Origin: Candidatus Pacearchaeota archaeon
Lineage (GTDB): Archaea; Nanobdellota; Nanobdellia; Pacearchaeales; UBA284
Direction: 5' to 3'
Assembly (NCBI GenBank): GCA_026395795.1
Contig: JAPLYB010000032.1
Coordinates: 1-39,476 of the forward strand
DNA length: 39,476 nucleotides
Shown here: positions 7,398-31,085 of the stretch, one piece after another
Position numbering within the stretch: position 1 is the stretch's first letter
Layout: each line of letters opens with the position of its first letter
Position numbers and translations under genes: made by a program
The notes under the pieces: model-generated
What the model was told of the DNA's origin: nothing
Seen by the model: the letters and a program-made list of their open reading frames with translations, nothing else
Databases searched by the model: none

Positions 7398-7657
7398 AAA
7401 ATAAAATGAAACTTTTGATTTTAGTAATTGCGGTCTTATTTTTAGCTACATGGTTCTTCTTGCTCGCATCTAACCCAGAGTCACATTTCAGAATAACGAG
7501 GGATGGAATTGCTGTTGATAGAGCAGAATACTCAAAAGAGATAGGCCAAGACCTTAGCAAAGCATGGCTGGAGCAAAATTGTGAAATTCAAAATCAAAGT
7601 GAAATTGTGTACCAGTGTAATGAATACAGTATTAAAGTCTGGAACCAAATAAAATGA
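7394..7657 (+). CDS. small signal-anchor hypothetical protein
   Basis: 87 aa, N-terminal TM; overlaps neighbours by 4 nt at each end. Confidence 0.5.
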   Translation: MKNKMKLLILVIAVLFLATWFFLLASNPESHFRITRDGIAVDRAEYSKEIGQDLSKAWLEQNCEIQNQSEIVYQCNEYSIKVWNQIK

Positions 7658-9726
7658 ACAAAAATAAAAATAAAGTTATGCTTGCGAGCAAGGCAATTGC
7701 TGAAGCTGTGAGAATGTGCGAGCCTCAAGTGATTGCTGGATATCCAATCACGCCTCAAACACTGATTATTGAGGAACTTGCAAGATATTTCGCAGACGGC
7801 AGATTCAAATGTGATTTTATTGATGTTGAATCAGAACATTCTGCTATATCTGCGTGTATCGGAGCGCAGGCAGCAGGATCAAGAACTTTCACAGCAACAT
7901 CTTCTCAAGGACTTGCTTTAATGCATGAAATGCTATTTGTTACTTCTGGAATGAGGCTTCCGATTGTTATGGTTGTCGCTAATAGAGCCTTAAGTGCCCC
8001 AATTAATATTTGGTGTTTTACAAAAGAAACGGGTGTTTTAATGGCAAATTTAACTTATAAATTAATTTCAGACATAAAAATCGGAGAGGAGGTTGTAGGC
8101 AAAGACAAAAAAGGGAATTTAGTGTTTACCAAAGTGAAAAGAACATTTAAAAGAAAAACAAGTGATCTAGTAAAAATAAAAACAGATCAATTTGACTTGA
8201 TGTGTACACCGGAGCATAAGTTTTATTATCATTCAGCGCATTCCCATTGGACACAAGCTCAGAATCTAAAAAATAAAAAGATTCATTGGTTTGGTTATGG
8301 ATTTGATGTCAATGATGAATTCAAAAGAGGATGGCTAGCAGGAATGAGTGATGGCGATGGTTGTTTTTATCGACAAGGCAACGCATATCATTTCAGACTA
8401 AAAGTAAAAGACGAAGAGATAACTAAAAATTTTACTAAATGGGCTAATTACTTTGAATTTCCAGTAAGAGATGTTGATTATCTTAAAAAATATGAATATT
8501 ATATTTCTATTTTAACCTCTACTCCAAAAACACATCATTTTCAGGAATTTCTTAAAAGGGAAAGCGGACTAGACTATTCTAGAGGATATTTAGCAGGAAT
8601 TTTTGACGCCGAAGGAAGTGGACCTTCAAAAGTGAAACAAGCAGTAATATATAATAGTAATCTAAGAATCGTAAAAAAAGTTGAGCATTATCTCAATCAA
8701 CTGAAAATTAGCTATAAAGTTTACTCAGATACGAGAAGAGATAAAAATCACCATAATGATAATTATCACATTAAAATAAATAATGTTCCAGAATTTTTTG
8801 TGAGATGCCCCCCAATTCTGGAAAGGAAAAGAAAAAATTTGTTATGGATGACATTGAAATCAGTTAAATCGCGCATTAAAATTTTAGATGTTATTAATAT
8901 TAATAAATCAACAGAAGTTTATAATCTTGAGACTGAAACTAAAAACTATATTGCTAACGGTTTTTTAGTGCATAATTGCGATCACTCTGATTCTTTTGCA
9001 CAAAGAGACTCCGGATGGATTCAATTATACTGTGAAGATGCGCAGGAAGCGCATGATACTATTGTTCAAGCATATAAAATTGCTGAAGACAAGAATGTAA
9101 TGCTGCCAATCATGGTATGCATTGATGGATTTACATTAAGTCATGTCTCAGAACCAGTTGAAATGATGTCTGATATGGATGTTAAAAAGTTTCTGCCAAA
9201 ATATACCCCTTCTTACAGACTAAATCCAAAAAGTCCAATTACAATGGGATCAATTGCATATCCTAATACTTATACGAAGTTCAAAGAACAACAAAGAGAA
9301 GCTATGGAATCTGCTTTTGATGTGATAAGGAAGACAAATACTGAATTTTCACAGAAGTTTGGGAGAAAGTATGGAGATGGGTTAATTGAAAAGTACAATG
9401 TTGAGAAAGCAGATCATGTGATTATTGCTATCGGAAGTCAGTGTAGTACAATAAAATATACTCTAAATGAACTCGGAAACAAAAAGGTCGGATTAATCAG
9501 AATAAAATCATTTAGACCATTTCCTTCGCATGAGCTTCGAGATGCTTGCAAGAATGTTAAGAGAATTGATGTTATTGACAGAGCAATGTCTCTAGGAAAT
9601 CGTGCGCCTTTGTATCTTGAGATTGTATCTGCAATAAATGATCCTAAAATCAAAATGAATTCACATGTCTTGGGATTAGGCGGAGAAGACATCACTCCTG
9701 AGAGGATAAAAGAGGTGATAAAATGA
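7654..9726 (+). CDS. porA: pyruvate:ferredoxin oxidoreductase alpha subunit precursor, interrupted by an intein
   Basis: extein KAIAEAVRMCEPQVIAGYPITPQTLIIEEL ... ANRALSAPINIW / CDHSDSFAQRDSGWIQ; 690 aa total, ~369 aa extein. Confidence 0.93.
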   Translation: MNKNKNKVMLASKAIAEAVRMCEPQVIAGYPITPQTLIIEELARYFADGRFKCDFIDVESEHSAISACIGAQAAGSRTFTATSSQGLALMHEMLFVTSGMRLPIVMVVANRALSAPINIWCFTKETGVLMANLTYKLISDIKIGEEVVGKDKKGNLVFTKVKRTFKRKTSDLVKIKTDQFDLMCTPEHKFYYHSAHSHWTQAQNLKNKKIHWFGYGFDVNDEFKRGWLAGMSDGDGCFYRQGNAYHFRLKVKDEEITKNFTKWANYFEFPVRDVDYLKKYEYYISILTSTPKTHHFQEFLKRESGLDYSRGYLAGIFDAEGSGPSKVKQAVIYNSNLRIVKKVEHYLNQLKISYKVYSDTRRDKNHHNDNYHIKINNVPEFFVRCPPILERKRKNLLWMTLKSVKSRIKILDVININKSTEVYNLETETKNYIANGFLVHNCDHSDSFAQRDSGWIQLYCEDAQEAHDTIVQAYKIAEDKNVMLPIMVCIDGFTLSHVSEPVEMMSDMDVKKFLPKYTPSYRLNPKSPITMGSIAYPNTYTKFKEQQREAMESAFDVIRKTNTEFSQKFGRKYGDGLIEKYNVEKADHVIIAIGSQCSTIKYTLNELGNKKVGLIRIKSFRPFPSHELRDACKNVKRIDVIDRAMSLGNRAPLYLEIVSAINDPKIKMNSHVLGLGGEDITPERIKEVIK
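8014..8976 (+). other. intein with LAGLIDADG homing endonuclease (321 aa) inside PorA
   Basis: begins Cys (CFTKETGVLM), block B CTPEHKF, dodecapeptides WLAGMSDGDG and YLAGIFDAEG, ends VYNLETETKNYIANGFLVHN with +1 Cys; in frame with porA. Confidence 0.95.
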
Positions 9727-19630: not shown

Positions 19631-19690
19631 ACAATTCTCTAAAGAAAAAGGTTTTTTAAACATTCTTAACATATAGTTATTGCAGAAATT

Positions 19691-19792
19691 AGCCCCGTAG
19701 TATAGCGGTCAAATTTTTCAAGAAATTCTTGAAGAAGACTAAGTATGCTGGCCTCTGGAGCCGGCGACCACGGTTCGAATCCGTGCGGGGCT
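19691..19792 (+). tRNA. tRNA-Gln(CTG) with a 30-nt D-loop intron
   Basis: AGCCCCG/CGGGGCT acceptor, CTGGC-CTCTGGA-GCCGG anticodon arm, T arm CCACGGTTCGAATCCGTG; insertion after GGTCAA. Confidence 0.92.
19713..19742 (+). other. archaeal tRNA intron (BHB-type) in the tRNA-Gln D-loop
   Basis: central helix GGTC/GACT, bulges AAA and AAG, inner helix TTTTTCAAG/CTTGAAGAA; removal restores a canonical D-loop. Confidence 0.88.
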
Positions 19793-19815
19793 ATTCTGCT
19801 TTTATTTCATAAAAA

Positions 19816-20874: not shown

Positions 20875-20947
20875 GCTCCCATAGTCTAGAGGCCAAGGAT
20901 ACTGCCTTCTCAAGGCAGTGACACGAGTTCGAATCTCGTTGGGAGCA
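20875..20947 (+). tRNA. tRNA-Glu(CTC)
   Basis: GCTCCCA/TGGGAGC acceptor, CTGCC-TTCTCAA-GGCAG anticodon arm, ACGAG-TTCGAAT-CTCGT T arm. Confidence 0.94.
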
Positions 20948-20949
20948 TT
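20925..20949 (+). repeat. attL (25 bp, tRNA-Glu 3' end)
   Basis: gagttcgaatctcgttgggagcatt identical to 29740-29764. Confidence 0.9.
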
Positions 20950-20996
20950 TATGACACGAGGAAAAGGCTTATAAAGAGCCTTTTCTTTAGTGGCGT

Positions 20997-22118
20997 ATGA
21001 CAACGAGTAAGATTCCCCTACAGAAAAGATACGACAAAAGTAAGAAGGACAATATCGTTAAGTGGATTGTTCCTGAAAAACAAAAAGAAGATATCAAAAA
21101 ATATATCGACGCTTACGAGAATGGCGACATAACAAACAGAATAGGAACTAATATGCACGTGATAATCGAGAGAGAATTAGATTATCTCAAGGTTTCTTTG
21201 CAAAGTATAAACAAGGACAAACCAATAAAAGAAGACATAACCACATTCAAGAATAATCTTATTCAGAACAAGATAAAGAGATATAACCAAAAAACTAAAA
21301 AGCATGACGGCGAACCTTATTCTTTGAAGACCAAAAAAGCCATGCTTGAAGCAGTTAAAAAATATCTTAAATGGAAGTTTCCAGATAAACCAGAGATTCT
21401 TGTGCCTTTAGAAATAAAAATAAATTCTAAAAAGAATGATTATAATTACTTGACTCTTGATGAGATAGATAAACTCTATAAGAACTGCAAGAACGACGAA
21501 GAACGATACTTTATTGCCGTTTTGTTCTCAAGTGGGGCAAGAATCGAGGAATTTCTTAATATTCGATACAGCGATATAACTCTTCCAAAAGGTGAAGAGA
21601 ATTTCGTTAAGATTAGATTAAGAAGTGAGTTCACAAAAACCGAAAGCAGAACAATCTCTCTATACTATAAAAATTGCCTTGAAGCAACTCGAGACTTCTT
21701 AAAACAAAGAGAGAATGAAGGCATAAAACCAGAAGAGGCAGTTCTAACAAAAAAATACGGCAATCTTCGGGGGTGGTTATCTACATTCGGAAAAAGAGTT
21801 TTGAATAAAAGAGTTTCTTGTCATCAATTTAGACATTCAAGTGCGACTTGGTTGGCTTCAAGATTAAACCGACAACAATTATGTATTTATTTTGGTTGGA
21901 AATTCTCAAGCAACATGCCCGATAGATACATCTCAAGAAACGGCGTAGATATGGAAGAAGCGAATAATAAGTTTTCAGCAACAGAATTAGAAGAATTAAA
22001 AAATAGGCTTGATAGGACTGAACAAAAGCTTAGTAGAACTGAAGAAACCTTAAAATTAGCTTTAGATAGTGGAACTAAAACTTTAACAGATGTCAAAGAA
22101 CGATTGGCTAAAAAATAA
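20997..22118 (+). CDS. tyrosine recombinase/integrase, archaeal type, C-terminal coiled coil
   Basis: SSGARIEEFLNIRYSDI, CHQFRHSSATWLASR, ...DRYISRNG catalytic R/HxxR/Y. Confidence 0.88.
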   Translation: MTTSKIPLQKRYDKSKKDNIVKWIVPEKQKEDIKKYIDAYENGDITNRIGTNMHVIIERELDYLKVSLQSINKDKPIKEDITTFKNNLIQNKIKRYNQKTKKHDGEPYSLKTKKAMLEAVKKYLKWKFPDKPEILVPLEIKINSKKNDYNYLTLDEIDKLYKNCKNDEERYFIAVLFSSGARIEEFLNIRYSDITLPKGEENFVKIRLRSEFTKTESRTISLYYKNCLEATRDFLKQRENEGIKPEEAVLTKKYGNLRGWLSTFGKRVLNKRVSCHQFRHSSATWLASRLNRQQLCIYFGWKFSSNMPDRYISRNGVDMEEANNKFSATELEELKNRLDRTEQKLSRTEETLKLALDSGTKTLTDVKERLAKK

Positions 22119-22120
22119 AA

Positions 22121-22786
22121 TTATTTCTTATGTTTCTTTAGATAAGCTTTTCCTTTATCAGTAAGAGAAAGTTTATAATCGATTTTTATAAAATCATCAT
22201 ACAAAAGAAAAATGAGCTTTGCTCCAAAGTTATCTTTTCCAAATTGTTTAAACATTTCTATAAGTTTTTGATGTTGTTTATCTGAAGGTTGTTGTTCTTT
22301 AATTTCGACAAGTATTTTATCTACGAGAATACTTTTTAATTCGCCCTCTTCAAAGCTTTTATAACGTCTGTATGAATATTGTTCTGCTTCTTTAATTCTC
22401 TTTTTGTTCAATATTAATGTTTTTGGTCGTCCCCTTCTTTCTTCTCCTTCAAGTTCAAGGGATTTTCTCTTAATCCAACCTTCTTTTTCTAGCATATTTA
22501 TCCAATAATTGAATGTATTGCGATTTATTCCTAATTTTCTCTGAATATCTGCAATTGCTAAATTTTCTTCCGAAGATAATATTTCAAATATCTTCTTTCT
22601 GATTTCACTCTTTCTTTGCATCCGACTTAAGAGATTTTTAGCATATACCTCTGTTTGTTCTGGTTTCATTTTCTTCATAGAACTTAGTCTTCTCTTTTCT
22701 TTGTCATATATCTCTTTCTCTTCCTTCTTAGACATCTTTCTCTTCCAGTTCCAATTTTTATTTTGTTTATATTCAGTGTTTTTCAT
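22121..22786 (-). CDS. winged-helix transcriptional regulator
   Basis: IADIQRKLGINRNTFNYWINMLEKEGWIKRK; internal start MKNTEYKQ preferred over the track start at 22840. Confidence 0.65.
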   Translation of the reverse strand: MKNTEYKQNKNWNWKRKMSKKEEKEIYDKEKRRLSSMKKMKPEQTEVYAKNLLSRMQRKSEIRKKIFEILSSEENLAIADIQRKLGINRNTFNYWINMLEKEGWIKRKSLELEGEERRGRPKTLILNKKRIKEAEQYSYRRYKSFEEGELKSILVDKILVEIKEQQPSDKQHQKLIEMFKQFGKDNFGAKLIFLLYDDFIKIDYKLSLTDKGKAYLKKHKK

Positions 22787-22787
22787 A

Positions 22788-22810
22788 GTTATAACCATAA
22801 TGGTCATAAC
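22788..22810. promoter_or_regulatory. near-perfect 23-bp palindrome at a divergent promoter
   Basis: GTTATAACCAT-A-ATGGTCATAAC (one mismatch). Confidence 0.55.
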
Positions 22811-22829
22811 ATATATCCTTATAAATATT

Positions 22830-23009
22830 ATGCCCCCCACCCCATATATGGAGTCAATTAATATTTACAAAGAGAAGTGCCCCCATTGTAAAAAGGAGTT
22901 TACTTCTACAAACGAAACGGAAGTAAGACATAATTTTATTACTCATAAAGGGGCTTGTCCTGTTTTAAAAAACAGACTTAAAGAACAAAATGGAAAACCC
23001 TCAAATTGA
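22830..23009 (+). CDS. small zinc-finger-like protein
   Basis: CPHCKKEFTSTNETEVRHNFITHKGACP; start at the internal ATG. Confidence 0.6.
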   Translation: MPPTPYMESINIYKEKCPHCKKEFTSTNETEVRHNFITHKGACPVLKNRLKEQNGKPSN

Positions 23010-23106
23010 TACTCTAAAACTGCTAGAAGTTCAGGTTATGGAATTTCAAAATCTTTGTCAAGAAGTCGAAGATTTAATTAAACAAAAAGAGGTAAAAAAA
23101 AGCTAA
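22990..23106 (+). CDS. 38-aa hypothetical protein
   Basis: MENPQIDTLKLLEVQVMEFQNLCQEVEDLIKQKEVKKS; overlaps the upstream stop. Confidence 0.4.
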   Translation: MENPQIDTLKLLEVQVMEFQNLCQEVEDLIKQKEVKKS

Positions 23107-23107
23107 A

Positions 23108-23296
23108 ATGGAAAATAAGGATATAGGTTACAGGGATAAAGAATGTTTTCTAGTTTATTTGGATGACAATAACCAGCAAGTTTCTGCTTATGTTTATGTT
23201 GTTGACATAAAAGAAAATCTGATTACTTTCAAAACCCCCAAAAATATTATCACCATTCCGACAAGTAGAGTAATTAAAATGAAGGAGAAGATTTAA
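23108..23296 (+). CDS. hypothetical beta-rich small protein
   Basis: 62-aa ORF in a compact operon. Confidence 0.5.
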   Translation: MENKDIGYRDKECFLVYLDDNNQQVSAYVYVVDIKENLITFKTPKNIITIPTSRVIKMKEKI

Positions 23297-23300
23297 AAAA

Positions 23301-24824
23301 ATGCCTGAAAAAGTTGATGGTTATATCGATGAAGCAAAAATAGACCACATTTTTGGAAAACCAAAGCCCGTTTTTCAAAGTCTTGGATGCGGAATACATA
23401 ACGGTCATTTTTATTTTGGAACAGTGATTTACGCTGAAAATAAACCTTTTGATGCTGTAATCACAGATACTGGAGATTATCATATTGCTTATCCCATGCG
23501 TGATGAAATAAAAGAGGTTTTTGGTCTCAACTATCGATTTCCTCTTTATGATGATATGATTGACTATGCTTGGAGTAATGAAGGTATTTCAGATTTTCTA
23601 AAGGGAGTTTATAACCCTGAAGAAATGAAAATTATCTTAAAAAATCAGTTTGAAAAAATAAAAAAGAAGATTGAGGAGTTAATGGAATACCATGATAAAA
23701 GAATTTATCTTTCTGTTGCTTGCGATATAATAAGCACATACTTTTTGCCCGTCTGGTCTGCAAGGGGCATAACTTATTTCAAAGGAGACGCTGGTTCAGG
23801 AAAAACAAAGAGTGCTTCTATTTATGGCTTGTCTGCGTTTAATCCGTTACAGGCGGGCAATATAACACCGTCTGCATTATTCAGGACAATTGAAAGCACC
23901 AAAGGAACGATGATTATTGACAATTTCGATAATCTTCCTGAAGACCAAAAAAATGAGATTATTCATCTGTTGCAAGTTTGCTACAAAAAAGGTTTAAAGT
24001 ATAGCCGTAGCGAAGAGAAAGGCAAACAAAGGAGACCTACAACATTTGATACTTTCTGCAATCTTGTTTTAAATAATATTATGGGTTTAGATGATGTAAC
24101 CTTATCAAGATGCAACGAGACAGACCTTTTGAAAACAACCTCTGATAAAGGAAAATTACAACCAGACTCAAAAGACGCATTTTGGAAAATCTTTAGAGAT
24201 GATATGCATGTCTACGCTTTGCAAAACTGGAAAGCGGTTTTAGAATGTTATGAAGAGTTAGATGTTGATTTAATAAATAGAGACTTAGAAAAAGTCAAGC
24301 CAATTTTAACAATAGCCAAAATCGTAGATGAACAAGTCTATAAACAACTTTTAGATTATTTCAAAGAACAATCAGAGCTTTCTAAAGTTAAAGATTTAAA
24401 AGATGACTGGGGATATCAGTTACTTAAAAAAATTAAAGAGATTGTTTCTCAGAATGGCGATTGTTGTATAAAAACTGAGACTTTAACAGATGAACTTGCT
24501 AATTTGGTACTTGACTCAGAAGCACGAGACTACAAAAAACAGAAGCATGGATTAAGCATATTTATCGGTAAGAGAATTAGAGCTGTTCCCATGTGGAAAA
24601 ATAGCGGCAGAATGATAAATGGTAAAAGTGAATATTTTTTCAAACGTGAAGATATTCAAAAGCTTTTAGAAATCAAAGGTTATGTTGAGAACTCTACTAA
24701 CCCTACAATCCCTACTAACTCTACTAACCCAACTAATTCTACATCTGAAATTCTTGTAGAGAAGGTAGAATTAGTAGAATTAAAAGGAGATAAGCAAGAG
24801 AATGAAACACCTAACACCAATTAA
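23301..24824 (+). CDS. P-loop ATPase, possible plasmid/virus replicative helicase-like protein
   Basis: Walker A FKGDAGSGKTKSASIYG, Walker B-like GTMIIDNFDNL, low-complexity Thr/Asn/Pro segment near the C terminus. Confidence 0.7.
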   Translation: MPEKVDGYIDEAKIDHIFGKPKPVFQSLGCGIHNGHFYFGTVIYAENKPFDAVITDTGDYHIAYPMRDEIKEVFGLNYRFPLYDDMIDYAWSNEGISDFLKGVYNPEEMKIILKNQFEKIKKKIEELMEYHDKRIYLSVACDIISTYFLPVWSARGITYFKGDAGSGKTKSASIYGLSAFNPLQAGNITPSALFRTIESTKGTMIIDNFDNLPEDQKNEIIHLLQVCYKKGLKYSRSEEKGKQRRPTTFDTFCNLVLNNIMGLDDVTLSRCNETDLLKTTSDKGKLQPDSKDAFWKIFRDDMHVYALQNWKAVLECYEELDVDLINRDLEKVKPILTIAKIVDEQVYKQLLDYFKEQSELSKVKDLKDDWGYQLLKKIKEIVSQNGDCCIKTETLTDELANLVLDSEARDYKKQKHGLSIFIGKRIRAVPMWKNSGRMINGKSEYFFKREDIQKLLEIKGYVENSTNPTIPTNSTNPTNSTSEILVEKVELVELKGDKQENETPNTN

Positions 24825-25041
24825 AGCAATAAAAAAGTATTGTAAAGAGCAGTGCTGTAATATGGAAATAGAAAGCTGGAAGAAATGCCCAACAACCACT
24901 TGCTACCTATATCCTTATCGCTTAGGTAAGAGACCCATAACTAAAACATTACCTGAACAATCTAACACTCAAAAAGTGATAGATAGCCCGCATAATTTGA
25001 CTAAAAACAACGAAATAAAGGATATCTCTCAAACCGAATGA
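24802..25041 (+). CDS. small Cys-rich protein of a phage/plasmid-associated type
   Basis: IKAIKKYCKEQCCNMEIESWKKCPTTTCYLYPYRLGKRP. Confidence 0.65.
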   Translation: MKHLTPIKAIKKYCKEQCCNMEIESWKKCPTTTCYLYPYRLGKRPITKTLPEQSNTQKVIDSPHNLTKNNEIKDISQTE

Positions 25042-25046
25042 TAGTA

Positions 25047-25150
25047 TCCGCACAACGCAAAGCCCGAGTGGAGTCCCCTTCTGCGTTTCTTGTCTACTTC
25101 GTAGACAAGAAACGCTATATTGTCCTTTCTCTCATGTTTGCTTGTGCGGA
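25047..25150. repeat. nested inverted repeat: 9-bp outer arms around a perfect 15-bp hairpin
   Basis: TCCGCACAA(25047)/TTGTGCGGA(25142); GCGTTTCTTGTCTAC-TTC-GTAGACAAGAAACGC (25083-25115). Confidence 0.85.
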
Positions 25151-25204
25151 AAGTACAAAACCTTGATTAGAAAAGGTTAAAAATATGAGATTTGTAAGAT
25201 AAAT

Positions 25205-26053
25205 ATGAAAGAAAGCTCTAGCGAAATAAAAAACAAAAATTTAAAACTAAGTGTAATGGAAGCATTGCAGGAAGATGCTTACAAAGGAATTGCAAGAATT
25301 GATGCAATGACAATGAAGCAATTAGGTGTGCAATCTGGAGATATTATCTCTATAAAGGGTGAACGTGAAAGTGTTGCCATTGTTGATGAAGTATGCCAAG
25401 CAGATGGGCTGTGGAAAAAATGGTTGGAGGAAAACCATCTTGGAGAGCATATTCTAAGAATCGATGGGATTATAAGAAGAAATGTCAAAACCGTAATTGG
25501 AGGAACCGTCATAGTTAATAAGATAGATACCAAAGAGGCAAAGGAAATTGTTGTTGAACCTACTAAAAAGGGGGTAGTTGTTCAAGTTAATCTTGAATAT
25601 TTCAAGAAAGAATTGCTAGGAAGAGCAATTGTTGTTGGTGATTTAATTCTTTTAGGCACTCAAAGGAGAAATGACTCGTCAGATGAGTTTGATGCTGGAG
25701 ATTTGGGAAGCATTTTTGGAGAAGTTTTCGGGAGTATGGGTATGAATCTAGGAGAGTCTGGAGGAATAACCTTTGTCGTAGAATCAACAAATCCTAAACA
25801 ACCAGTTATAATAACCGATAAAACCCAGATTAAGGTAACCCGTAAATCAACCAAAGAGTTTAACGAAGAAGATATTCGTGAGAAACAAATAATTGAAGTT
25901 ACTACTCTTCCAAATATGAAAAAGTTTCTTCGAGTTAAATCTCTAAAAGACATTTTCAAATTTTCAGAAAAAGGGTACATTATAAACAAATATGAAGATA
26001 AAATCAAGAAAATTTATTTTGTATCGGGGTATTTTTACGAAGTAAAAAAGTAG
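25205..26053 (+). CDS. standalone Cdc48/VAT N-terminal substrate/cofactor-binding domain protein
   Basis: LKLSVMEALQEDAYKGIARIDAMTMKQLGVQSGDIISIKGERESVAIV...ILRIDGIIRRNVKTVIGGTVIV; LGRAIVVGDLILLG; TFVVESTNPKQPVIITDKTQIKV; no Walker motifs. Confidence 0.85.
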   Translation: MKESSSEIKNKNLKLSVMEALQEDAYKGIARIDAMTMKQLGVQSGDIISIKGERESVAIVDEVCQADGLWKKWLEENHLGEHILRIDGIIRRNVKTVIGGTVIVNKIDTKEAKEIVVEPTKKGVVVQVNLEYFKKELLGRAIVVGDLILLGTQRRNDSSDEFDAGDLGSIFGEVFGSMGMNLGESGGITFVVESTNPKQPVIITDKTQIKVTRKSTKEFNEEDIREKQIIEVTTLPNMKKFLRVKSLKDIFKFSEKGYIINKYEDKIKKIYFVSGYFYEVKK

Positions 26054-26149
26054 AAGTGTTGAAAAACGAATTCTTCTTTATTTATTCTATTCAAGAACAA
26101 TGAGAGTTAGTTCACCTTGTATATCTTATATGAAACGATTTAACTATTC

Positions 26150-26353
26150 TTATTTTTCAACTAGAATCAATCTTAAAACTATAATCAGAAAAATAAACAA
26201 AATAACCGAAATTAAAGCTGGAGCAAAAATTCTCAACAAAATAGACTCATTTTTTAATAATTCATAAGCTACCATCCATTGAGTAACTATTACACCACCA
26301 AAAAATCCTGCAAGAATATCTCTTACAAATTTTGTCCATTCTTTAGGGTTCAT
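26150..26353 (-). CDS. small membrane protein
   Basis: 67 aa, two TM. Confidence 0.5.
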   Translation of the reverse strand: MNPKEWTKFVRDILAGFFGGVIVTQWMVAYELLKNESILLRIFAPALISVILFIFLIIVLRLILVEK

Positions 26354-26379
26354 CCCCCCTTTTTGGCTTATACATTTTA

Positions 26380-27045
26380 TTAATAGATTGTGAGATTAAA
26401 AATTTTATTTTCTATTGGTGGCACTGAGTGAAGATAGAAATACAGTTGCACAGTCTTATCCTTATCATCAAAATAGCTCGGACAAGATGGGCAATAAGAT
26501 AACGAGGATAACGTAACATCTAAATAACAAGATTTGCCCACTTGTAATGAACCTTGTTGTGAAATTATCAAACCGACCCCAGCATCACAAGAAATGGAAT
26601 AGTATTGACTACCATAACTCTTGGGAATATAATCTTTATACATGGGAACGCCTTTTTCTATTCTGTAAACATAAATATCATACACATTAAACCCTTCTAT
26701 GTCTTTTTTCCCAATATTAGTAAAATTGATATGGAACTTGACATCTTGTTTATTGTTAAGTTCAATATTAGAAGGGGAAACATTTATTTTTATATCATAA
26801 TCTTTCTGAGAGCTAGTTAGTCGAAGAGAGTCTAATTTTATTATTCCAATAGTCCCAAAAAGGATTACAACTATAATTGAAACTATCCAGTAAACTCTTT
26901 GCTCCCCCAATCCCATCGACTTTTTTGATTCTGTCTTACTAATGTTCTTATGTTCATCACTTACTTTTAAATGCTTTTTAGTTACCCTTAGTAATTCTTT
27001 TTGAGTTTCTAATTGTTTTTTTGGGATACTCTCTCTTTCTGCCAT
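26380..27045 (-). CDS. single-pass membrane protein with extracytoplasmic beta domain
   Basis: TM VYWIVSIIVVILFGTIGII; NVSPSNIELNNKQDVKFHINFTNIGKKDIEGFNV. Confidence 0.6.
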   Translation of the reverse strand: MAERESIPKKQLETQKELLRVTKKHLKVSDEHKNISKTESKKSMGLGEQRVYWIVSIIVVILFGTIGIIKLDSLRLTSSQKDYDIKINVSPSNIELNNKQDVKFHINFTNIGKKDIEGFNVYDIYVYRIEKGVPMYKDYIPKSYGSQYYSISCDAGVGLIISQQGSLQVGKSCYLDVTLSSLSYCPSCPSYFDDKDKTVQLYFYLHSVPPIENKIFNLTIY

Positions 27046-27068
27046 ATTTTTCTAGTTCCTTTTAGAAT

Positions 27069-27455
27069 TTAAACCCTCTTCTTTCTATTCCTTCTATTCA
27101 ATCTTCTCACCCAGTAATTATATGCTCTAAGCTCTTTTGGGTCTTGTTGCATTATTCTTTGAAAGATATCATCATCTGTAGGATGTCCTTTCCAGTATAT
27201 TCTTTTTCTCACACGATATAAGGGTTGTTTATAACGAATTGGTTTCCAGACTTCTTTTCCATTTCTATGACCTTTAAATTCCCATGTGCCAGACCTTTTC
27301 TTTCCTTCCTTAATACTCTTCCAAATCCAGTAAACAGCACATACGCTAATTATTCCCGCACCAACAAAACAAAACCATTCTTTATAGATAAACCCTAGAA
27401 CTAGAAGGAAAACTGCTAGAAGAGAGTAGAATACTGCGTTTTGTTTAGTTTTCAT
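27069..27455 (-). CDS. two-TM membrane protein, paralog of 36445..36879
   Basis: shared MKTKQ.VVFY.LLAVFLL.LGFIYKEWFCFVGAGII and DPKELR.YNYWVRRLNRRNRKK. Confidence 0.75.
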   Translation of the reverse strand: MKTKQNAVFYSLLAVFLLVLGFIYKEWFCFVGAGIISVCAVYWIWKSIKEGKKRSGTWEFKGHRNGKEVWKPIRYKQPLYRVRKRIYWKGHPTDDDIFQRIMQQDPKELRAYNYWVRRLNRRNRKKRV

Positions 27456-27912
27456 TTTGTAATTGATAAAGAGAGGGAAATTTCTTTTTGAGTATGGTTT
27501 TCAAGATAAAAAGAGATACCAAAAAACCAACAAATAAGATAACAGAGGCGATTATCATAGATAGATGATACTTCCCAATTAAATACACCATTAAGATAAA
27601 AAGAGATACAAACAATACAACTTCCATAGAGACAAATTTAGAATTAATGGGGTTCTTTTCAAAAATAGAAATGATTTGGAAAATCAGGGAAAATACAATC
27701 GCTAATCCTCCAAAAACAACCATAATTAAAGCCATTCCACTGAGTTGGTTTGGAGACTTTGAAAGAACAATAGTTATGATTGCCCCCATAAGCAAGACTA
27801 AAAGAGAAGTGTAAATAGTATCAAAACTGCCAAGTTCAGTTGTTTCTTTGATAACGTCCAACTTTTTGTTAATTGTTTCTAAAATTTCGGTGTCTTTCTT
27901 TTCCTCAACCAT
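27445..27912 (-). CDS. four-TM membrane protein
   Basis: hydrophobic segments; start context matches the 36888..37289 gene. Confidence 0.6.
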   Translation of the reverse strand: MVEEKKDTEILETINKKLDVIKETTELGSFDTIYTSLLVLLMGAIITIVLSKSPNQLSGMALIMVVFGGLAIVFSLIFQIISIFEKNPINSKFVSMEVVLFVSLFILMVYLIGKYHLSMIIASVILFVGFLVSLFILKTILKKKFPSLYQLQNEN

Positions 27913-27962
27913 ATCTTTCTAACATCTAGCCCCTATTTATTCCTTTTCCCAGCCACCACACA

Positions 27963-27980
27963 CCACGCCCGCAGGCGTGG
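27963..27980. repeat. GC-rich hairpin CCACGCC-CGCA-GGCGTGG
   Basis: same stem, different loop, at 37340..37357. Confidence 0.8.
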
Positions 27981-28068
27981 GCGTACACCCCCCATAAAGA
28001 TAAGATTTCAACACCAGCGACCTTTGAACCCTCTCTCTTTGCTCTCACCCAGAACCCCAGAGAAAATT

Positions 28069-28323
28069 TTATGTTAATTTTTTTATTTTCATTCCTTTTT
28101 CTGTAAGAATATAGATTCTACCAAGTTTATCCTTTTCATTAAGACACTTTGCAACCTTATATTTTACAAACAACCTAAGATTATCACTCACATTATTCAA
28201 AGCGAGACTTGTTAACTTCTTGATTTGTGTGGGCGTTAAAGGTTTATCCATTACTTTAAGCATTTTAGCTCTTTGAGAGCCCCGAATAATCCACGAATAA
28301 AGTTTAACCTCTTTTTGTTTCAT
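28069..28323 (-). CDS. winged-helix regulator
   Basis: PLTPTQIKKLTSLALNNVSDNLRLFVKYKVAKCLNEKDKLGRIYILTEKG. Confidence 0.7.
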   Translation of the reverse strand: MKQKEVKLYSWIIRGSQRAKMLKVMDKPLTPTQIKKLTSLALNNVSDNLRLFVKYKVAKCLNEKDKLGRIYILTEKGMKIKKLT

Positions 28324-28407
28324 AAAAACAGGGGTTTTTAAGAATTAAAATGGATTACACTGAAATTATACCGAAATATTTAAAAGAGTTGAGGAACTAA
28401 GAAAAGT

Positions 28408-29064
28408 ATGAAAAAGCAACATTTAACTTTAATTGCTATTTCTTTGTTGATTATTGGAATATTATTTATTGCTGGATGTAACCAAACAACAAATCAACAA
28501 ACATGCAATAAACCATATATTTTAGTTGGGACTTCTTGCTGTTTAGACCAGAATGATAATTCAATATGCGATACAGATGAGACCTCAATACTACCACCAG
28601 AAACCAATTTCTTGACTTATGATAACTCTGCTTATGGAATAAGAATAACATATCCTTCAAATTGGGAAAAAGAGGAAAAATCGACTGGCATGGTCATCGT
28701 TGAATTTTTCTCACCAAAAGAAAGTGTTTCTGATGCAATTACAGAAAATCTAAATGTGGTTATTGAAGATTTATCTGCTCAACCCATGACCTTAAACGAA
28801 TACACAAACCTGTCTATCAAGAATATAAAGCTATATTTTACAGATGTGAATATGATTGATTCAAGTGCAACTACCTTAGGTGGCAATTCTGCACATAAAG
28901 TTGTTTATACTGCGAATATGGGACAATATAATGGAAAATTTATGCAAGTTTATACAATTAGAAATAATAAAGCATATGTAATTACATATACCGCACAACC
29001 AAGTACGTATTCCTATTATTTAGATATAATAAACCAGATGATTAATTCCTTTGAAATTATTTGA
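28408..29064 (+). CDS. lipoprotein: Cys-rich Asp/Asn-loop leader plus PsbP-like domain
   Basis: lipobox LFIAGC; CNKPYILVGTSCCLDQNDNSICD; YGIRITYPSNWEKEE... Confidence 0.7.
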   Translation: MKKQHLTLIAISLLIIGILFIAGCNQTTNQQTCNKPYILVGTSCCLDQNDNSICDTDETSILPPETNFLTYDNSAYGIRITYPSNWEKEEKSTGMVIVEFFSPKESVSDAITENLNVVIEDLSAQPMTLNEYTNLSIKNIKLYFTDVNMIDSSATTLGGNSAHKVVYTANMGQYNGKFMQVYTIRNNKAYVITYTAQPSTYSYYLDIINQMINSFEII

Positions 29065-29119
29065 ATTAACAATATAAATAAAGAAAAAGATTTAAATAAA
29101 TAACTTTACTTGATTAAAC

Positions 29120-29401
29120 ATGAATAAAACACAATGGTTTGTTTTAAGTGGAATATTGATTTTATCAGGTATTTATATTATCTTTGCTGGAATGAATTGG
29201 GGGTGCATACAAGATTCTTTTAATCAGTTTGCAGACTCACAATCATCTCAAACTTTTTATATGGATTATGCCCCCAATGAATACGACCTTGTTCAGTGTG
29301 CAGTTGGAATCAAAATGTCTTATATACTCGTATATTTGGCTTTTTTCTTAGGCGTGGTGTGTGCTATTATGGGATTTTTAGAACTAAAGAAAAAGGTTTA
29401 A
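29120..29401 (+). CDS. two-TM membrane protein, paralog of 38076..38312
   Basis: MNKTQW.VL N terminus, G(F/I)LEL/EPKKK C terminus. Confidence 0.6.
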   Translation: MNKTQWFVLSGILILSGIYIIFAGMNWGCIQDSFNQFADSQSSQTFYMDYAPNEYDLVQCAVGIKMSYILVYLAFFLGVVCAIMGFLELKKKV

Positions 29402-29425
29402 ATTATTGAATTCATTAAAAAGAAT

Positions 29426-29692
29426 ATGCCAAAACAAAAAAAGCAAGAACGCAAAACATGGCCTTTGATTCCTTTGATAATTGTGATATATTTTGCTGTC
29501 GGAATAACACTTCTTATATGTTCCCCCTTTCTTCCTTATCCGTATAGTACTTCCTTATCTCGAATAGCAGATAGCATGATAAATATTCATTTTTATTATT
29601 CCGATTTAATAATATTTCTAGTTGGATTACTTATCGGCATGGCTATTGTTCGACATAAAAAACAAACTATCTCAAAAGCTCCAGATAGCTAA
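29426..29692 (+). CDS. two-TM membrane protein
   Basis: 88 aa, two hydrophobic segments. Confidence 0.55.
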   Translation: MPKQKKQERKTWPLIPLIIVIYFAVGITLLICSPFLPYPYSTSLSRIADSMINIHFYYSDLIIFLVGLLIGMAIVRHKKQTISKAPDS

Positions 29693-29739
29693 ACCGATAA
29701 CTTTCTTACTAAGTGCCTCGTGTCAACCTTTTATGATTA

Positions 29740-29764
29740 GAGTTCGAATCTCGTTGGGAGCATT
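29740..29764 (+). repeat. attR (25-bp copy of the tRNA-Glu 3' end)
   Basis: gagttcgaatctcgttgggagcatt. Confidence 0.9.
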
Positions 29765-29810: not shown

Positions 29811-31085
29811 ATGAAAATAGACCTATATAATCATGAGCCAAGATACAATAGCTGGAAAGAGCACGCTTCTAAAAAGGATTATATCGAAGGAAACCTAACA
29901 AAAAAGAATTCTGATACTCTATTAAAATATATCTTTGATATGGAAGTTGGTGCTAATGTTTCTTTGCTTAGTAAAAAAGGCGGAAGGTCATTTATGAGGC
30001 TTAATACTATCAGAACAAGACTTACTCAGCTGTTTATAATGTTTCAAGGAAAAGATATTCCAGATATAACAAAAATAACAGAAAAACAACTTCAGAATTT
30101 CTTTGCAAATATGAGAAATGGGACAATCAAGAACAAATTAGGAGAAAAATACAAATCAACTGCCGATTATGTCAAGACTTTCAAGGCATTTTGGCACTGG
30201 TATATGAAAGTAAGCAAGAAAAAAGAGAAACTCATAACCGATGTTACAACAGAATTAGACTCCTCAAGAGATGAAAAGCCAAAATGGGTGTATCTTGATG
30301 AAGACCAGATGAAACTGCTTCTTGAGAAGTGTGAGCCACGTTATAAGCCATTCTTGTCATTCCTATACGATTCTGGAGCAAGGGTTACAGAATCCTTCTC
30401 TTTATTAGTTCAGGATATTCACGAAGAAAAAAATATTGTTTATGTTAACATAAGGGATGAAACAAGCAAGACATTTGGAAGAAAGATTAAACTGCTATTA
30501 TGCGGAAAAGACCTGCTAGAATACATAAAAAGAAGTGAACTAAAGCCAGAAGATAGACTATTTGGTTTTAGCCCAGAATATACTAATAGATATTTAGGAG
30601 AATTAGCAAAACAATTATTCGGGGATAAAGATTCAAAAGCAGGAGCAAAATACTCTGACTTGTCAATGTATGACTTTAGGCATAATTCTTGTTGTTATTG
30701 GATTAAAAGATACAAGAATAACACTGGCTTGATGTTTAGATTTGGATGGAAAACTGAAAAATATATTTTATATTACTCAGAATTTCTTGGAATGAGAGAT
30801 TTAATTTCTCAAGAAGATTTGTATATTGATATTACAAAAACAGAACTTGAGAAACAGCTTGATGAACAAAGTAAACAAGTAATTTCTTTACAAACTGCTC
30901 AAACAGAAATGCAGAAAGAATTTGAAAAAACCAAAAAAAGATTAAAAATAACATCAAAAGGAGATAGAATGGCGAGAGCATTTGTTGAAAGAATATTGGA
31001 AAATAGACCCGAAGTTAGAAGAGCTGTTGAAAAGGCAATGGAAAGAGAGGAATTAGAAAAACAAAATAAAAAATCTCATAAATAA
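29811..31085 (+). CDS. second tyrosine recombinase/integrase
   Basis: LYDSGARVTESFSLLVQDI, LSMYDFRHNSCCYWIKR, Tyr region KYILYYSEFLG, C-terminal coiled coil. Confidence 0.85.
   Translation: MKIDLYNHEPRYNSWKEHASKKDYIEGNLTKKNSDTLLKYIFDMEVGANVSLLSKKGGRSFMRLNTIRTRLTQLFIMFQGKDIPDITKITEKQLQNFFANMRNGTIKNKLGEKYKSTADYVKTFKAFWHWYMKVSKKKEKLITDVTTELDSSRDEKPKWVYLDEDQMKLLLEKCEPRYKPFLSFLYDSGARVTESFSLLVQDIHEEKNIVYVNIRDETSKTFGRKIKLLLCGKDLLEYIKRSELKPEDRLFGFSPEYTNRYLGELAKQLFGDKDSKAGAKYSDLSMYDFRHNSCCYWIKRYKNNTGLMFRFGWKTEKYILYYSEFLGMRDLISQEDLYIDITKTELEKQLDEQSKQVISLQTAQTEMQKEFEKTKKRLKITSKGDRMARAFVERILENRPEVRRAVEKAMEREELEKQNKKSHK

Follow-up and report, generated by a model that had tools for sequence, protein, structure and literature searches.

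Introduction

Non-canonical tRNA introns serve as the main evidence for the co-evolution of tRNA gene structure with the subunit type of the splicing endonuclease, EndA. In a published generalisation, the efficient removal of relaxed introns is credited only to (alpha-beta)2 and epsilon2 EndA (PMC6379350), while alpha4 and alpha'2 enzymes are said to cut canonical BHB motifs only, with Korarchaeum as the one alpha2 exception that carries a specificity loop and with Methanothermobacter among the archaea that have multiple-intron tRNAs (PMC4033280). The tRNAscan-SE 2.0 survey counted 673 non-canonical BHB tRNA introns in 217 genomes (PMC8450103).

The non-canonical BHB introns of Crenarchaeota and Thaumarchaeota are short, lie outside position 37/38, combine a 4-bp helix and 3-nt bulges with an inner hairpin, and restore the cloverleaf when removed. 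The intron described here, found in a 39,476-nt stretch of DNA from a Candidatus Pacearchaeota archaeon (the window), shares all of these features; it differs from that set in belonging to the Pacearchaeota/Woesearchaeota type (DPANN), outside the training of the published BHB models, and in its apparently alpha4-like EndA. Nanoarchaeum equitans (EndA 3iey, (alpha-beta)2) belongs to the same class of archaea, has a relaxed motif, and its catalytic subunit is similar to the query EndA over most of its length; it has two subunit genes, however, with catalysis and the L10 motif on separate chains, whereas the query has both on one chain and no second gene was found in its genome. ARMAN-2 (epsilon2 EndA, 4fz2 and 9w2k) is likewise a DPANN archaeon with relaxed D-arm introns, but its enzyme, at about 390 aa, fuses three units and has an ASL, unlike the single-unit query of 217 aa, in which no such loop was found in the predicted model. 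The best structural match is the alpha4 EndA of M. jannaschii (1a79), colinear with the query and also carrying the catalytic triad and the L10 motif on one chain; it is classed as narrow in specificity (PMC6379350), and the query adds to this plan a basic N-terminal tail of about 48 residues.

The intron itself is thus of a kind already known, here in an under-described lineage. The new point is an apparent mismatch with the published rule, in that relaxed introns seem, as judged from sequence and predicted structure, to occur together with a one-gene, alpha4-like EndA. Our literature search retrieved no publication on DPANN or Pacearchaeota tRNA introns of this sort; a survey of EndA types against introns, reportedly made by Kaneta et al. 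in 2018, may mention these lineages.

The tRNA-Gln(CUG) gene and its intron

Read directly from the sequence, the tRNA-Gln(CUG) gene spans positions 19691-19793 (Table 1), with acceptor strands AGCCCCG (19691-19697) and CGGGGCT (19786-19792) and the anticodon CTG within the loop CTCTGGA. The preliminary description ended the gene at 19792, but the discriminator A73 lies at 19793 and moves the end accordingly; the helix, bulges and cut sites given there are unchanged. A 30-nt insert (19713-19742) interrupts the D loop at tRNA position 21/22, and the arms of its hairpin (TTTTTCAAGA/TCTTGAAGAA) form 10 bp with a 3-nt loop or, in an equivalent view, 9 bp with a 5-nt loop.

Table 1. Features of the tRNA-Gln(CUG) locus (window coordinates).
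Feature	Position	Strand	Basis
5' exon of tRNA-Gln(CUG): acceptor strand, D-stem 5' strand, D loop to A21	19691-19712	+	sequence; cloverleaf fit of spliced product
30-nt intron, tRNA position 21/22	19713-19742	+	sequence, shuffles, fold; intronless relatives match spliced product gap-free
3' exon: D-stem 3' strand GTAT, anticodon arm (CTG), T arm, acceptor, discriminator A73	19743-19793	+	sequence
BHB central helix, 5' strand GGTC; holds G18 and G19, pairs with 19737-19740	19707-19710	+	sequence, fold
BHB central helix, 3' strand GACT	19737-19740	+	sequence, fold
5' bulge AA/A, predicted cut after 19712	19711-19713	+	sequence
3' bulge AA/G, predicted cut after 19742; faces unpaired GC (19705-19706) once D stem forms	19741-19743	+	fold
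Intron hairpin, 10 bp: 19714-19723 with 19727-19736, one G-U, loop AAT	19714-19736	+	sequence, fold
TATA-like TTTTTTAAA after purine-rich GAAAAAGG; candidate archaeal promoter, 31-39 nt upstream of tRNA-Gln(CUG)	19652-19660	+	sequence only

Unconstrained RNAfold of the whole pre-tRNA returned the 4-bp helix, the 3-nt bulge and the 10-bp hairpin unprompted. When the exons were held fixed, all 13 scored BHB positions of the insert were paired, a value equalled by none of 20,000 intron shuffles. The readable, relaxed BHB motif of the preliminary description was thereby recovered, and its reading of a 30-nt D-loop intron with predicted cuts after the second base of each bulge proved exact, as judged by sequence, shuffles and intronless orthologues. 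The weak outer helix described there needs restating. No outer pairs lie directly beside the 3' bulge, and to this extent the insert departs from the strict canonical hBHBh' form; an outer helix is nevertheless present, since in RNAfold the D stem GTATA/TATGC can form outside the BHB across a 2x3 internal loop whose two strands are GC and AAG. As the D stem pairs only across this loop, the 3' site is placed within a loop instead of a strict 3-nt bulge, and the GC/AAG gap between the D stem and the motif makes the motif relaxed at this site and not strictly canonical.

With a standard tRNA restored by removal of the insert, a 4-bp helix with trinucleotide bulges, conservation and covariation among relatives (see below), and EndA and RtcB both encoded in the genome, the locus has the properties of a non-canonical archaeal BHB tRNA intron, and the insert is confirmed as a genuine intron of this type, in relaxed form. 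A group I intron, the catalytic core of which is typically longer than 200 nt, or another known RNA was considered and rejected, the insert being just 30 nt long and a search of Rfam (E<=1) having given only tRNA-like matches.

Standard gene finders dealt poorly with the locus. ARAGORN, run over the window, did not list tRNA-Gln(CUG), and on a sub-stretch it wrongly reported an intron-containing tRNA-Ala(ggc); with Rfam RF00005 the gene scored 23.3 bits, under the cut-off of 29. Because tRNA gene finders miss such genes, false gaps are to be expected in the tRNA sets of these archaea and in codon-reading inferences drawn from them.

The spliced product and its intronless orthologues

Removal of 19713-19742 yields a 73-nt tRNA with a cloverleaf fit of 61.0; on the same score, most intact tRNAs of Pace33H, a member of the same family with a complete genome (Pacearchaeota archaeon Pace33H, CP061211.1, 710,724 bp), fall between 58 and 64. 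The intronless tRNA-Gln(CUG) of a relative (G009) is identical to the predicted spliced product at 67 of 73 positions without gaps, and its D stem and loop (GTATAGCGGTCAAGTAT) match the product exactly across the junction. The same splice rule, applied to tRNA-Glu(TTC) of the query genome, gives a D stem and loop equal to those of its intronless Glu(CTC) (window 20875-20947). These comparisons bear on the choice of splice register. If 19714-19741 (28 nt) were removed instead, three central and nine inner pairs would form and an 11-nt D loop would be left, at an equal cloverleaf score; the intronless orthologues, however, have a 9-nt D loop, as the 30-nt register gives, the full 4-bp central helix belongs to that register, and the register of the 30-nt rule fits all seven introns resolved in this genome. 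We consider the 28-nt register very improbable.

Conservation of the tRNA-Gln intron

The genome assembly around the window (957 kb) is 87.5% complete. Judged by EndA, its nearest named relatives are the archaeon CSMAG_2760, at 75% identity, together with MAGs that bear the labels Pacearchaeota, Woesearchaeota and Nanoarchaeota. A pattern search for the tRNA-Gln intron gave matches in 15 of 383 genomes of the class, which is a lower bound because the pattern was strict. After folding, and with G018 and G009 added, clean tRNA-Gln introns at 21/22 were present in 11 other genomes, for CTG, TTG or both; three matches (L132, L142 and L144) were removed as not clean on folding, and two more (L130 and L137) for a poor whole-tRNA fit. 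Across 16 introns, each hairpin arm paired with its own partner at 6.75 of 8 positions, as against 4.26 of 8 when partners were swapped, a difference that none of 20,000 permutations reached, with the proviso that related introns are not independent. The hairpin sequences thus differ between tRNA-Gln introns yet still pair.

The least likely of the readings that we weighed is that the gene is a pseudogene, or that the insert is never removed and the tRNA works with an extended D arm. In favour of this reading, the tRNA-Gln(UUG) could in principle read CAG codons by wobble. All tRNA arms are intact, however, and a cut-ready BHB is conserved across genera while the hairpin sequence varies; an extended D arm would, moreover, block the contact that G18 and G19, located in the central helix, make between D loop and T loop. 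The preliminary description had named a second intact tRNA-Gln(CTG) as the sign of a pseudogene, and a pattern search of the 87.5% complete assembly found none, only one CTG gene and one TTG gene, the latter with an intron at the same place; the idea of a relic beside a second CTG copy was rejected on this ground.

Other tRNA introns in this genome and in Pace33H

Six further non-canonical introns were resolved in the same genome, in Gln(TTG) and Glu(TTC) at 21/22, in Val(TAC) and Val(GAC) near 20a/21, in Trp(CCA) at 22/23 and in Phe(GAA) at 27/28. All six have a 4-bp central helix and the cutting register of Gln(CUG), with shuffle counts of 0-16 in 20,000. Introns at 37/38 are carried by seven tRNAs, namely Ile(TAT), Arg(TCT), Ser(CGA), Ser(TGA), Ser(GGA), Leu(CAA) and Leu(TAA). 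The statement that D-loop introns are rarer than those at 37/38 therefore does not describe this genome, where seven resolved non-canonical introns, initiator tRNA-Met being excluded from the count, stand against seven at 37/38. In Pace33H, 12 introns sit at 37/38, where the outer helix is 5 bp or longer, and a single one lies in a D loop, that of Gln(TTG). With seven non-canonical introns in the one and one in the other, D-arm introns are far more numerous in the query's genus than in this family member. In CSMAG_2760, other non-canonical introns occur in Pro(TGG), Leu(AAG) and Leu(CAA).

The initiator tRNA-Met of the query genome (L023:101-203, minus strand) contains a D-arm insert of about 25-28 nt, and every splice choice fell short of either a full BHB or a good cloverleaf; a D-arm insert is also present in the initiator tRNA of G009 (L316), and that of CSMAG_2760 (L317) is uninterrupted. 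The 37/38 introns of Arg(TCT), Gly(TCC), Gly(CCC) and Lys(CTT) in Pace33H share a nearly identical hairpin (ATAAGGGC..GCCCTTATCAACCC, or variants close to it), a pattern suggesting that introns have spread between tRNA genes. The Pace33H tRNA-Lys(CTT) (L300, G005:86850-87160) has a normal 3' part and its 37/38 intron, and its 5' end is unpaired with the acceptor; the gene is either damaged or a split gene with its 5' half elsewhere.

The splicing endonuclease

Classification of the host endonuclease, as the preliminary description had proposed, was based on a single PF01974 gene, that of EndA, which adjoins tRNase Z. The N-terminal and catalytic domains (PF02778 and PF01974) are joined in its one ORF of 217 aa, as expected of an alpha4 EndA, the core of which measures about 180 aa. 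Alignment with M. jannaschii EndA and with both EndA subunits of a control genome with an N. equitans-like enzyme (G193) placed the catalytic triad (Y153, H163 and K194) and the L10 motif VDEEGDVTYY (GIVDEEGDVTYY) together on this single chain. In the control, two genes were recovered, a catalytic alpha that lacks the L10 motif (GIVSDKIEFIEVSW) and a non-catalytic beta that has it (AIVDSEGDVTYY); alpha and beta were told apart by the motif D-x-x-x-D-V-x-Y-Y, counts of acidic residues in the L10 region having failed to separate the two in G193. The catalytic triad was kept in all 57 relatives from which EndA was extracted.

The AlphaFold model of the query EndA (pLDDT 86) matched the alpha4 enzyme of M. 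jannaschii best in the PDB (TM 0.91 on target). Its Foldseek alignment to 1a79 has 171 columns for 171 residues, whereas the crenarchaeal subunits align with gaps, and neither the CSL nor the ASL specificity loop, of the crenarchaeal alpha-beta and ARMAN epsilon enzymes respectively, was found in the predicted model at the level of this alignment. The N-terminal tail is rich in lysine and poorly modelled. The tail was considered as a necessary cause of broad specificity and rejected, since two genomes (G082 and G096) carry the same tRNA-Gln intron with an EndA of 172 aa that has no tail. The sole EndA found thus looks, by sequence and predicted fold, like an alpha4 enzyme with neither a beta subunit nor a CSL/ASL loop, and the broad-specificity endonuclease that the preliminary description took to be required did not emerge from this classification. 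RtcB is also encoded in the genome (E 1.1e-168).

We regard it as probable that tRNA-Gln(CUG) is functional and that its 30-nt intron at 21/22 is excised by an alpha4 homotetramer of the single EndA found, the exons then being joined by RtcB. In the precursor, GGTC of the D loop would pair with GACT at the 3' end of the intron, beside the 10-bp hairpin, and the motif would present two unpaired trinucleotides to EndA. The enzyme, most likely acting as an alpha4 homotetramer on a relaxed motif with a D stem displaced by two extra bases, would cleave after the second base of each trinucleotide, and RtcB would ligate the exons into a tRNA with D loop AGCGGTCAA and D stem GTAT/GTAT. We infer that splicing takes place in vivo, that the enzyme is in the alpha4 state and that EndA alone suffices. 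As reviews limit alpha4 EndA to canonical BHB motifs (PMC4033280, PMC6379350), either the assignment of the oligomer or that generalisation must be wrong.

The first of these would be the case if the same intron, with the same splice sites, were removed by a heteromer of EndA and a highly divergent or unassembled beta-like partner, with broad specificity as in N. equitans. Efficient cutting of relaxed motifs has been shown only for (alpha-beta)2 and epsilon2 enzymes (PMC6379350), the stretches KWVLxPV and FAxKNRVAHST of the query are similar to those of the N. equitans alpha, and the genome of the related nanoarchaeon Nst1 likewise had no identified beta subunit gene (PMC3655853). In addition, PF01974 might miss a beta subunit that is very divergent, and the assembly is incomplete. 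Against a heteromer, PF01974 detects the N. equitans-type beta of the control at E 4.9e-16, and the query retains the L10 motif, which in N. equitans has been lost from the alpha and is found on the beta subunit. The profile search found no beta subunit gene in the query genome or in the complete genome of Pace33H, which has one PF01974 gene even at E<=10. PF01974 matched exactly one gene in 53 of 56 genomes (those of relatives and the query's own) and none in two; in the remaining genome, G028, there is a second fragment covering 29 profile positions. Apart from this short fragment and two pieces at contig edges in G216, no DPANN relative searched yielded more than one full gene. None of the 11 other genomes with the tRNA-Gln intron has two PF01974 genes; there is exactly one in 10 of them and none in G318. 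A heteromer therefore appears unlikely to us, although it is the alternative that we take most seriously.

The single-gene alpha4-like enzyme might act in the same way across the lineage. That single-gene, alpha4-type EndA without a specificity loop excises relaxed D-arm introns throughout Pacearchaeota and Woesearchaeota is a proposal to which we give even chances. If it is true, the rule limiting the removal of relaxed introns to (alpha-beta)2 and epsilon2 enzymes is broken, and this would suggest that the two-subunit split in Nanoarchaeum was not what enabled relaxed introns. The lineage appears to pair such introns with the ancestral one-gene enzyme, and the rule can consequently be tested with one purified protein and one transcript.

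Neighbouring and additional observations

The gene for tRNA-Gln(TTG), with its D-loop intron, is located some 1-2.5 kb downstream of EndA both in the query genome (L119, L001, G000:C41) and in Pace33H (L097); in G010, G002, G006 and G004 the two genes are no more than about 2 kb apart.

The window contains an integrated element (20875-29764) with tRNA-Glu(CTC) (20875-20947) and an ORF for a tyrosine integrase (20997-22118); the 3' end of this tRNA forms a 25-bp direct repeat (GAGTTCGAATCTCGTTGGGAGCATT) at 20925-20949 and 29740-29764. A second integrase ORF (29811-31085) directly follows the latter copy, perhaps as a result of tandem integration. The idea that the intron shields the tRNA gene from integration was rejected; the one att site of the window is this repeat of a tRNA 3' end, which a D-loop intron would not interrupt, and protection is therefore unsupported. 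An intein with a LAGLIDADG domain lies within the 2-oxoacid:ferredoxin oxidoreductase alpha subunit (window 7654-9726).

According to a 2024 paper, A34 tRNA genes are absent in archaea (PMC11066159). The query genome has tRNA-Leu(AAG) (L025:61-144, minus strand) and tRNA-Pro(AGG) (L023:598-671, minus strand), and further A34 genes were seen in Pace33H (Leu(AAG), L297; Pro(AGG), L298), in G009 (Leu(AAG), L323) and in CSMAG_2760 (Leu(AAG), L303, with a non-canonical intron). One locus of G009 (L325, G009:C72:5060-7640) holds 16 tRNA genes in 2.6 kb, including a bacterial-type tRNA-Arg(ACG), and is probably a virus or a contaminating contig.
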